Shown here: one piece after another, positions 46,639 through 53,733 of the stretch
How positions within the stretch are numbered: the stretch's first letter is position 1
How the letters are laid out: each line of letters opens with the position of its first letter
NCBI GenBank assembly: GCA_002256345.1
Contig: NKIY01000016.1
Location: forward strand, 19,373-83,372
Length of the DNA: 64,000 nucleotides
Source of the DNA: Bradyrhizobiaceae bacterium PARB1
Lineage (GTDB): Bacteria; Pseudomonadota; Alphaproteobacteria; Rhizobiales; Xanthobacteraceae
Direction: 5' to 3'
Notes under the pieces: generated by a model
Database searches by the model: none
What the model was told of the DNA's origin: nothing
The model's input: the letters and a program-made list of their open reading frames with translations, nothing else
Program-made: the position numbers and the translations under genes

Positions 46639-46845
46639 CTATCGTGTTCCGAAACCTTGGGCAGCCCACGCCTGTTTCAACGCTGGCGAAGAAAGATAGG
46701 CGATAAGATCTTTTGTGGCTGCGATGTCTTTGCTGCTTGCGGCAGTTCCGATCGTATAGATCGTGTAGGTCTGAATGTCGGCCGGCAGCGGCGTGGCAAC
46801 AAGACCGCTCACGACCAGAGCGTCGCCGCGGCTCATGGCATCCAT
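46639..46845 (-). pseudogene. C-terminal remnant of ModA-like periplasmic binding protein
   Basis: SGLVATPLPADIQTYTIYTIGTAASSKDIAATKDLIAYLSSPALKQAWAAQGFGTR; only about 65 aa. Confidence 0.55.
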
Positions 46846-49574
46846 CGCTCCACGGTTGCCGCGCAGAATTTGTACACCGGCACACGCGTCGTCGGATCAA
46901 GACGATTCATGGTCAGTTCATTGGCGGCCGCCTCAAAGAAGGACATCGCCATCCAGATCACGCCGGGCTGCAAAGTCGCATCCGGTTTCACAATCAGGCA
47001 GACCGCACCCCGCCTTGTCCGCACCTCAACCGTGTCGCCGGCCTTGACGCCAAGACGGGCCATGTCATCCGGATGCAGATGGGCGCGCGGCTCCGAGCTC
47101 AGGGCTTCCAGCACGGGCGCGCGACGTGTCATGGCGCCCGTATGCCAATGCTCGCGCAACCGTCCCGTCATAAGAATAAAGGGATAGTCGGCATCCGGTA
47201 TCTCGTCCGCACCGGTCGCATCAAGCGGCACGATGATGGCTTTCGAGCCATGAGCGAAACTGTCGCTGAACAGACTGTCACTCGCTCCATCACTTTGCAG
47301 CGGATACCGGGCATGTCCAGACCGGACGAGAAACGGCCAGCTAAATCCCTTGAGCACCGGCACGACATTCGCCATTTCGTCGAAGATGCTGCCCACAGTG
47401 ACGTCCTGCCACGGCAATCCGAGACGCACGGCAAGATCGCGAACGATCATCCAATCCGGCCGCGCTTCACCGGGCGGCGGCAGTGCAACCGCGATGTGTT
47501 GCACGATGCGATCCGTATTGGTGACTGAACCTTCCCGCTCGGCCAGAGCCGCCGCAGGGAAAATCACGTCCGCGAAGGCTGCCGTTTCGGTCGGGAAAAT
47601 GTCCTGAACAACGAGATGATCGAGTCCAGCCAGCGCCGCGCGCGTCATCGCAAGATCAGGATTGGCGAGCGCCGGATTCCCGCCCATGACATATACCCCC
47701 CGGATATTTCCTCCGCGAGCGGAATCAAACATCTCCACGACCGAAAGACCAAGGTTGGACGGCGTATCGATATTCCATAGCGCGTCAAAGATGGCGCGCT
47801 CGGTATCGTCTTCCAGATCGCGGTAGCCCGGAAGATAGTTCGGCAACAGCCCTGCGTCGCAGGAGCCTTGCACGTTGTTTTGACCGCGCAACGGGTGAAG
47901 TCCCGCTCCAGGCCGTCCCACCTGGCCGCACACTAGAGCGAAAGCAATAACGGAACGGATGTTGTCGGCACCGAACGTGTGCTGGGAAGCGCCCATGCCC
48001 CAGAACGTCATGGCGGCACTGGCCCCGGCGAACAGCCGCGCTGCTGCGATGATGTCTTCTTCCGGCACCTGACAGACCCGGGCTGCAGATTCCAATGTGT
48101 ATGGCTCAACACGTGCACGGAGCGCTTCAAAGCCTTCCACGCGTGCATTGACAAAGTTACGGTCGTAAAGCCCTTCTTCAATCACGAACCGCGTCATCGC
48201 TGAAAGCAGCGTCACATCGGTTCCGGGAGCGATACGGAAGTGATGGGTCGCAAAGCGTGACAGGGCCTGAATATGCGGGTCCACCAGGATCAGCTTGGTC
48301 CCGCGCCGCAACGCGCCCTTCATGAAGGAGGCAGCGACTGGATGGTTCGAATCCGGATTTGAACCGACCATCAGAACGACATCGGCCTTTTCGATCTCCT
48401 CAATGGGAGCGGTGACGGCGGCAAGACCCGTCGCCTCGGCCAATGGCGGAACCGATGCACAAAGACGGGTGCAATGATCGATATGCGACGTGCCGAAGCC
48501 AGTGCGCCCGAGTTTCTGAAGCAGATAGGCATCTTCGTTCGAAGCCTTTGCCGAACCGAGCACGGCCAGCGACGAACCACCATGGTGGCTTCGCACGCGG
48601 GCGAAGCCCTCAGCCGCCACGCTGAGCGCTTCGTCCCAGCTCGCGAGCCGGAAAAGCGCGAGCGCCTCGGGGCCGCTCAATGTTTGTGTGGCATCTTTGG
48701 GCGTATTTGGCCGCCGGATGAGAGGAGCCGTCAGCCGGTCAGGATGGCGCAGATAGGAAAAGCCGAACCGCCCCTTCACACAAAGCCGCCCATGGTTCGC
48801 GGGGCCATCGGCGCCCTCTGTGAAAACGGTGCCGTTATCGGCGGCGTGAAGCGTGACGCGACAGCCGACACTGCAAAACGGGCACACTGTCTCTCCCGAC
48901 GAGTTAACGCCAGAACGCCCGCCGATTTCCACGGCCGCCTTTAATGAAAACGCACCAGTTGGACAAAGCTGCGCACACTCGCCACACGATGCGCAATTGC
49001 TTTTCCCCATGGCCGCGCCGCTATCGAAGGCCACATGAAGATCGCTGCCCCGACCCGCCAGCGCGATAACCCCGTTGACCTGGACATCGCCGCATCCGGT
49101 CCGGCATCTGCCGCAATGAATGCAAGCGTCGGAGTCGAACACGATCCCGGAATGGCTTGCATCCGGCGCATGCGTTTCCTGCTTGCTCCCAAAGCGTTCG
49201 GCATCCGCGCCATTGCGCGCAAGGAGCAACATAAACGGACTGTCGGGCTGGCGCGCGCGCGCCTGCCCGGTCATCTCGGACGCCAGCAACTCCGTCGCCA
49301 GCCGGCGAACGCGATTAGTCCGCTCCGTATCGGTGCGAATGTGCAATCCGGGCGCAGCGGGATAACGGCAGGCCGGCACCAGATCCGCCTCGCCCTCCAC
49401 CTCGACGAGGCATGTGCGGCAGCTGCCGATCGTGGGAAAGCCCACGCGGGTGGATGCACACAAATGGGGAATATCCAGCCCGCCCTGCGTAGCCGCCTGA
49501 AGTAGACTCTGACCGGACTGCGCGGGGATCGCCTGCCCATCGATATGGATATCGAAGCCGTTCATGAATCGCAT
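46833..49574 (-). CDS. NAD-linked formate-dehydrogenase-like molybdopterin oxidoreductase, catalytic subunit (NuoG-like N-terminus)
   Basis: 2Fe-2S GSCRTCLVEVEG; 4Fe-4S CIHCGRCRTGC and CASCGECAQLCPTGA; CPFCSVGCRV; WGMGASQHTFGADN; LHPLRGQNNVQGSCDAGLLPNYLPGY. Confidence 0.9.
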   Translation of the reverse strand: MRFMNGFDIHIDGQAIPAQSGQSLLQAATQGGLDIPHLCASTRVGFPTIGSCRTCLVEVEGEADLVPACRYPAAPGLHIRTDTERTNRVRRLATELLASEMTGQARARQPDSPFMLLLARNGADAERFGSKQETHAPDASHSGIVFDSDACIHCGRCRTGCGDVQVNGVIALAGRGSDLHVAFDSGAAMGKSNCASCGECAQLCPTGAFSLKAAVEIGGRSGVNSSGETVCPFCSVGCRVTLHAADNGTVFTEGADGPANHGRLCVKGRFGFSYLRHPDRLTAPLIRRPNTPKDATQTLSGPEALALFRLASWDEALSVAAEGFARVRSHHGGSSLAVLGSAKASNEDAYLLQKLGRTGFGTSHIDHCTRLCASVPPLAEATGLAAVTAPIEEIEKADVVLMVGSNPDSNHPVAASFMKGALRRGTKLILVDPHIQALSRFATHHFRIAPGTDVTLLSAMTRFVIEEGLYDRNFVNARVEGFEALRARVEPYTLESAARVCQVPEEDIIAAARLFAGASAAMTFWGMGASQHTFGADNIRSVIAFALVCGQVGRPGAGLHPLRGQNNVQGSCDAGLLPNYLPGYRDLEDDTERAIFDALWNIDTPSNLGLSVVEMFDSARGGNIRGVYVMGGNPALANPDLAMTRAALAGLDHLVVQDIFPTETAAFADVIFPAAALAEREGSVTNTDRIVQHIAVALPPPGEARPDWMIVRDLAVRLGLPWQDVTVGSIFDEMANVVPVLKGFSWPFLVRSGHARYPLQSDGASDSLFSDSFAHGSKAIIVPLDATGADEIPDADYPFILMTGRLREHWHTGAMTRRAPVLEALSSEPRAHLHPDDMARLGVKAGDTVEVRTRRGAVCLIVKPDATLQPGVIWMAMSFFEAAANELTMNRLDPTTRVPVYKFCAATVERWMP

Positions 49575-52844: not shown

Positions 52845-52851
52845 GGGATCA

Positions 52852-53733
52852 TCAGGATTTCAGCTTGCCCGTCAGGACGCCTGCTTCCTCGATAGTCGCA
52901 TAGTCCTTGTGCACGGCCGGAACGAAGCCGTTATAGCCGCTGCCCATCATAGACTGGGCTTTTTCTTCGGAGAGAGAGGTCAGGATGTCGCGAATCTTGA
53001 CCTTGAGCGCCGGATCAAAGCCCTTGGGCACACAGATGGCATCATTCGGCAGTTCTTGCGACGTCCAATAGACTACGACTTTTTTCGGGTCCATTTCGCC
53101 AGCTTCGATCATGCCGTTACGGCCGCGATCCATATTCGAGCCGAGATCGATGAGACTCTGCTGAATCATGGAAACGTTGTTGCCGAAGGTCGCTCCCTCG
53201 CGCAGCTGGAAGAATTCGCGCGGATCGACGCCGTTCTTGACGAAGAATGCATAAGGGATGAGCCAGCCGGACGTATTGCCCTGATCGCTCAGGGACAACT
53301 TCATGCCCTTCGCATCCTTCGGAAAATCCTTGATGGGCAAACCGGGGCGCCCCTCGATAATCGCGTGATAGGACGGCTTGCCATTGTATTTCGCCGTTGC
53401 GATGACCTCGGTGCCGGCATGCTTGTTGGCAAGCACATAGCCCCACGGCCCCAGCCAGCCCACATCCAAATGGCCGTTACTCATCGCGACGGAGATAGCG
53501 GCCCAGCTCTCAGGGCTGACCAGTTCGTAAGTGGCCCCGAGTTGCTCCGCAAGATAGCGAAACATCGGCTCGAATTCCTTGATGGTGGTTGCCGGAGTCG
53601 GCCGCACCGGAGCAATTGCGAAACGAAGATGAAGCTTGCCATCGCGCATCGCCTGCCCTTGCGCGGCATTGGCGATGAACGGCAGCGAAAGCGCGGAAGC
53701 GGCGACCGCCCCAAAGCGACGACGTGTAATCAT
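52852..53733 (-). CDS. ptxB: Phosphonate/phosphite ABC transporter substrate-binding protein (PtxB/PhnD-like), Tat-like signal
   Basis: [88 protein letters not shown]. Confidence 0.88.

Follow-up and report, generated by a model that had tools for sequence, protein, structure and literature searches.

The stretch of DNA analysed here (the window; 64,000 nucleotides of a contig from Bradyrhizobiaceae bacterium PARB1) encodes a two-subunit enzyme resembling formate dehydrogenase in one operon with an ABC transporter, next to a divergent gene for phosphite dehydrogenase, and the question raised by the locus is what substrate such an enzyme would meet there. A first reading, made from the letters only (the sequence-only reading), had described the transporter as a phosphite type, ptxABC, and had offered two functions for the enzyme: oxidation of hypophosphite to phosphite, which PtxD would then finish, or disposal of formate released during phosphonate breakdown. 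The features considered are as follows.

52852 to 53733, minus strand: htxB, putative periplasmic hypophosphite-binding protein (match to HtxB 5me4; pocket residues)
51882 to 52745, minus strand: htxC, permease (TIGR01097, PhnE-type permease, 269.7 bits, above cut-off)
51051 to 51872, minus strand: htxD, ATP-binding subunit (TIGR02315, 299.6 bits, above cut-off)
49562 to 51061, minus strand: FdsB-like subunit (Pfam Complex1_51K, NADH_4Fe-4S and SLBB; 240 bits to the formate dehydrogenase beta subunit 7e5z_B)
46833 to 49574, minus strand: FdsA-like catalytic subunit, proposed hypophosphite dehydrogenase (870 bits to the M. extorquens formate dehydrogenase alpha subunit 7vw6)
53734 to 54051, no strand: htxB/lysR intergenic region, between divergent genes (position only)
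54052 to 54921, plus strand: LysR-type regulator, ptxE-like (Pfam HTH_1 and LysR_substrate)
54963 to 55943, plus strand: ptxD, NAD-dependent phosphite dehydrogenase (347 bits to 4e5k)

The gene order is htxB-htxC-htxD-fdsB-fdsA, with lysR and ptxD divergent. All five open reading frames of the operon lie on the minus strand (53829-52852, 52799-51882, 51872-51051, 51154-49562 with its start at 51061, and 49574-46833), and both this run, with its two overlaps, and the divergent PtxD/PtxE pair are as the sequence-only reading had placed them. The GTG start of the fdsB-like gene at 51061 sits within the end of the ATPase gene, htxD (tatcGTGccgcaTGA), and the FdsB-like and FdsA-like genes overlap at 49562-49574; a second in-frame ATG of the FdsA-like gene, at about 49565, overlaps the fdsB-like stop as ATGA. 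The htxB frame is open from 53829, with a likely start at 53733 (MITRRRFGA, a twin-arginine-like leader), and the htxC frame is open from 52799, with 81% identity to the Xanthobacter copy. From its position, the htxB/lysR intergenic region is expected to hold regulated promoters; scans for promoters and terminators gave no signal above shuffles. Repeats in the cassette are short and are probably chance matches. The similarity of the window's PtxD to P. stutzeri PtxD is full-length (347 bits over 316 ungapped residues), and the next non-PtxD family scores 181 bits.

The phosphite assignment of the transporter did not survive comparison of its binding protein, whose match to P. stutzeri HtxB (5me4) has 443 bits, as against 77 for PtxB (5o2j) and at most 58 for PhnD. 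The six HtxB pocket residues that we checked (W52, N128, F158, M176, R178, and D206) are all kept; W52, N128, F158, R178, and D206 have been connected with hypophosphite selectivity (PMC5700983), and M176 has been discussed elsewhere (PMC6629693). These residues are identical in the HtxB proteins found beside HtxA and those found beside FdsA; the corresponding residues are WSHFRD in a separate "hybrid" HtxB group and YSHSTY in one PtxB-like protein. P. stutzeri HtxB binds hypophosphite with a Kd of 0.56 uM and phosphite with a Kd of >10 mM, and binding of methylphosphonate and phosphate was not seen (PMC5700983). Based on the HtxB match, the kept pocket residues and these affinities, the cargo is most likely hypophosphite. 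Since the binding protein is HtxB, we have named the operon with htx designations.

Known hypophosphite loci, htxABCD(E) of P. stutzeri WM88 and plasmids of Cupriavidus (NZ_CP017750.1) and Burkholderia (NZ_CP091649.1), have the HtxB type, HtxC, HtxD, PtxD, and LysR in common with the window. However, the five-gene operon of the window contains no dioxygenase: HtxA, the Fe(II)/2-oxoglutarate enzyme of those loci, is absent, and a Mo/W FdsBA-like enzyme stands at the opposite end of the operon. The ptxABCDE phosphite locus also shares PtxD and a LysR regulator with the window, whose binding protein is HtxB and not PtxB.

A scan of a genome collection for htxB relatives gave 21 loci, and 24 further htxB-bearing loci were compared in all. 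Wherever an operon is visible in full, it encodes exactly one of the two enzymes, HtxA or an FdsA-like protein. HtxA occurs with HtxB in L023-L026 and on plasmids L035-L037, where the order is htxA-htxB-htxC-htxD-ptxD-lysR in Cupriavidus and Burkholderia, and htxA-htxB-htxC-htxD in Ciceribacter. FdsA, mostly together with FdsB, occurs with HtxBCD in L009-L012, L014, L016, L018, L020, L021, and L027-L029, and in another gene order in L019 and L022. In L013, L015, and L017 the contig stops short of the full locus, the start of FdsB being visible in L015. Bradyrhizobium sp. BTAi1 (L027) carries both types, HtxA and FdsA, each in a cassette of its own. Such a one-for-one exchange is the pattern expected if one enzyme replaces an unrelated other.

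The neighbourhood, whose uniqueness the sequence-only reading would have counted against a functional link, recurs: the window's gene set, with short gaps or overlaps, is found in 8 further distinct loci, two of them without fdsB, and the htx and fds genes are present in Rhodopseudomonas in rearranged form. The order in the Rhodopseudomonas-type loci (L019, L022, and L100) is ptxD-fdsB-fdsA-htxB-htxC-htxD-lysR. FdsA cassettes without FdsB (BTAi1-type) are those of L021, L027, and L028. The second BTAi1 cassette (L027:667-4463) pairs a divergent HtxA with a hybrid HtxB (pocket WSHFRD), and the BTAi1 HtxA is 97% identical to that on the conjugative Ciceribacter plasmid (L037). In two draft genomes (L013 and L082), ptxD or fdsB is short by about 50 or 43 bases relative to the window, with near-identity otherwise; the missing bases may be assembly artefacts or decay.

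What kind of enzyme, then, stands in the place of HtxA? Its domain order is that of M. extorquens FDH1 (7vw6/7e5z) in both subunits. The FdsB-like subunit has a degenerate NuoE-like part and a NuoF-like FMN/NAD part (Pfam Complex1_51K and NADH_4Fe-4S, above cut-off), and the FdsA-like subunit retains 16 of 16 Fe-S cysteines, the metal-ligand Cys372, Lys267, and Arg563. Unlike FDH1, the htx-linked clade lacks a histidine and one neighbour after the ligand cysteine, carries N364H throughout, has 25 clade-specific columns and, among the genomes searched, occurred only alongside htx genes. The window's motif is DHCTRLCASVPP, without the formate dehydrogenase histidine, and reads C372-A-S-V-P-P; the clade as a whole has C[A/S]SVPP (CxSVPP), two residues shorter than the CHASSV of the unlinked relatives. 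The histidine is deleted in 9/9 distinct htx-linked main-clade proteins and present in 37/37 unlinked relatives. In the R. capsulatus formate dehydrogenase the equivalent histidine affects inhibitor binding (PMC13397495), and exchange of that histidine and of the conserved arginine, together with the addition of a further arginine, led to a gain of nitrate reductase activity (PMC10385643). Judged by its residues, the active site differs from those of formate dehydrogenases by changes specific to the clade; since the deletion was inherited from a single event, it does not by itself name the substrate. An AlphaFold2 model of the FdsA-like protein (11 sequences) averaged a pLDDT of 64, and less than 50 in the active-site loop (369-388); we drew no conclusions from it.

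Given that the closest solved relatives are formate dehydrogenases and that Arg563 and Cys372 are retained, we considered whether the operon encodes an ordinary NAD formate dehydrogenase, serving for example formate clearance or NADH supply, with hypophosphite oxidised by an enzyme elsewhere in the genome. HtxA, too, has been reported to be active on formate (PMC11066067). Against the TIGR01591 equivalog (formate dehydrogenase alpha; curated cut-off 666.25), the window protein reaches 645.8 bits and falls short. An NAD-type formate dehydrogenase alpha subunit encoded separately in this genome reaches 941.6 bits, well above the cut-off. Other members of the linked clade score 588-672, two of them narrowly passing the cut-off, and the Rhodopseudomonas type exceeds it by 41 bits; unlinked relatives score 717-743. 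The clade-wide deletion of the conserved histidine, the position of the enzyme in HtxA's place with none unlinked in the genomes searched, and the lack of any evident reason for a formate enzyme to remain linked to hypophosphite import through 50% divergence make this explanation unlikely. As for the formate disposal suggested in the sequence-only reading, no phosphonate-breakdown gene was found among the window genes scanned, and with the separate formate dehydrogenase also present, we rejected it.

Trees place the main htx-linked FdsA group, nine distinct proteins from several alphaproteobacterial families, in one clade (support 100/100), with identities of 50-82% inside the clade and 43-48% to the unlinked group. 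Retention of the htx linkage over this range implies selection for joint function. Conversely, a search of 297 genomes from the family for histidine-less copies gave nine, in eight genomes; eight of the nine are beside htx genes, and the contig of the other (L079) breaks off inside fdsB. Among 397 genomes of the order, 113 have an FdsA relative over threshold (112 besides the window genome, at 44-48%), and only two have a close htxB relative. The linked FdsA of the Rhodopseudomonas type (L019, L022, and L100) keeps the histidine (CHASST), and its loss is thus not needed in every htx-linked enzyme. The motifs DHPTRLC and IRGHNNAQG of that type are both altered compared with all formate-type relatives. 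The main clade and the Rhodopseudomonas type are sisters (89/87; 99/99 with fewer rows), so that a single recruitment from formate dehydrogenases is favoured by the trees. Two independent recruitments are disfavoured by this grouping, in which both branches are long.

Phosphinates are chemically similar to hypophosphite, and an altered active site does not say which of them is oxidised; the enzyme might thus act on some other reduced phosphorus acid (an organic phosphinate, or phosphite), hypophosphite being one of several substrates. We regard this as quite improbable, since phosphite is already covered by PtxD, the enzyme's interchange with HtxA suggests a reaction in common, and the binding preferences of P. 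stutzeri HtxB given above, with phosphite bound only at >10 mM, argue against it (PMC5700983).

The hypophosphite function put forward in the sequence-only reading is, by comparison, strongly supported by the HtxB-type transporter, the occupation of HtxA's place and the clade-specific active site. We consider it quite likely that FdsAB takes the place of HtxA as a dedicated hypophosphite dehydrogenase, dependent on Mo or W, and supplies PtxD with phosphite. HtxBCD would import hypophosphite, and FdsA, a putative bis-MGD enzyme with Mo or W whose ancestor was an NAD formate dehydrogenase of the M. extorquens type, would convert hypophosphite and water to phosphite at the metal. Electrons would pass through the Fe-S clusters of FdsA to the FMN of FdsB and, presumably, on to NAD+; PtxD would then convert phosphite to phosphate, using a second NAD+. 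Each hypophosphite would yield phosphate and two NADH and, unlike with HtxA, neither O2 nor 2-oxoglutarate would be consumed. FdsB is absent from the BTAi1-type loci and, therefore, NAD+ is not the direct acceptor everywhere. The chemistry could consist in transfer of a hydride or, alternatively, of an oxygen atom from water that the conserved arginine holds; the latter has been argued for formate dehydrogenases (PMC10385643) and would suit formation of a P-O bond. The hypophosphite/phosphite couple lies at -740 mV at pH 7 (PMC5700983), so that reduction of NAD+ by hypophosphite would be strongly downhill.

The hypophosphite cassette is mobile: its contig carries conjugation genes, and it lies in a stretch, comprising at least 61,546 bases of the contig, that matches the chromosome of a second species of the genus with 99.997% identity. 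The window encodes a DUF3363 relaxase-like protein and conjugation genes of the TraG and Trb types. Four genomes (two Xanthobacter, one Aquabacter, and one Hyphomicrobiales) share another version of the cassette, with 99.7% identity or more over >10 kb. Positions 1-60199 of the window hold a conjugation module (SLT lytic transglycosylase, DUF3363 relaxase-like, TraG, TrbL, VirB8, CagX, and TrbI homologues) followed by cation ATPase, VIT-family, RND efflux, and MbfA genes, and this part resembles an integrative conjugative element whose cargo relates to metals. The 99.997% identity to the second species (G002) reaches up to an IS3-like transposase region. A location on mobile DNA, near transposases and conjugation genes, is also where FdsAB might be found if they were mere passengers unrelated to phosphorus. 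That is very improbable, however: operon position and overlaps are the same in divergent, separately moving copies, all cofactor ligands are conserved, and FdsA is present exactly where HtxA is absent. The fuller account, that a hypophosphite dehydrogenase of the DMSO reductase family arose from a formate dehydrogenase, lost the histidine, and travels through Alphaproteobacteria in a mobile cassette that would work independently of O2 and yield two NADH, appears likely to us.

Xanthobacter flavus WM2814, a reported hypophosphite user, belongs to the same genus as two carriers of the cassette (L011 and L012). The 2006 PhD thesis of M. M. Wilson on this strain, and a 2007 review by White and Metcalf, may mention a formate dehydrogenase-like or molybdenum-dependent function, and the thesis may foreshadow the FdsA-type cassette. 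It is cited for hypophosphite use as reference 31 of PMC5700983. Within the literature that we searched, a molybdoenzyme for hypophosphite is not described, and the O2-dependent dioxygenase HtxA is the only dedicated hypophosphite oxidase. A 2024 survey found htxA to be lacking in two of four htxB genomes (PMC11066067).

If our reading is true, the cassette would provide a second way for life to feed on hypophosphite, by a route that needs no O2 and conserves both electron pairs as NADH. Oxidation of P(I) would be an activity new to the molybdoenzyme family, and would show that an active site built for C-H oxidation can be turned to P-H. Carriers of the htx operon with the FdsA-like enzyme, on mobile DNA, include soil, water, and marine bacteria. 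Because automatic annotation labels the genes of the cassette as formate dehydrogenase and phosphonate transporter, the use of hypophosphite is probably undercounted.
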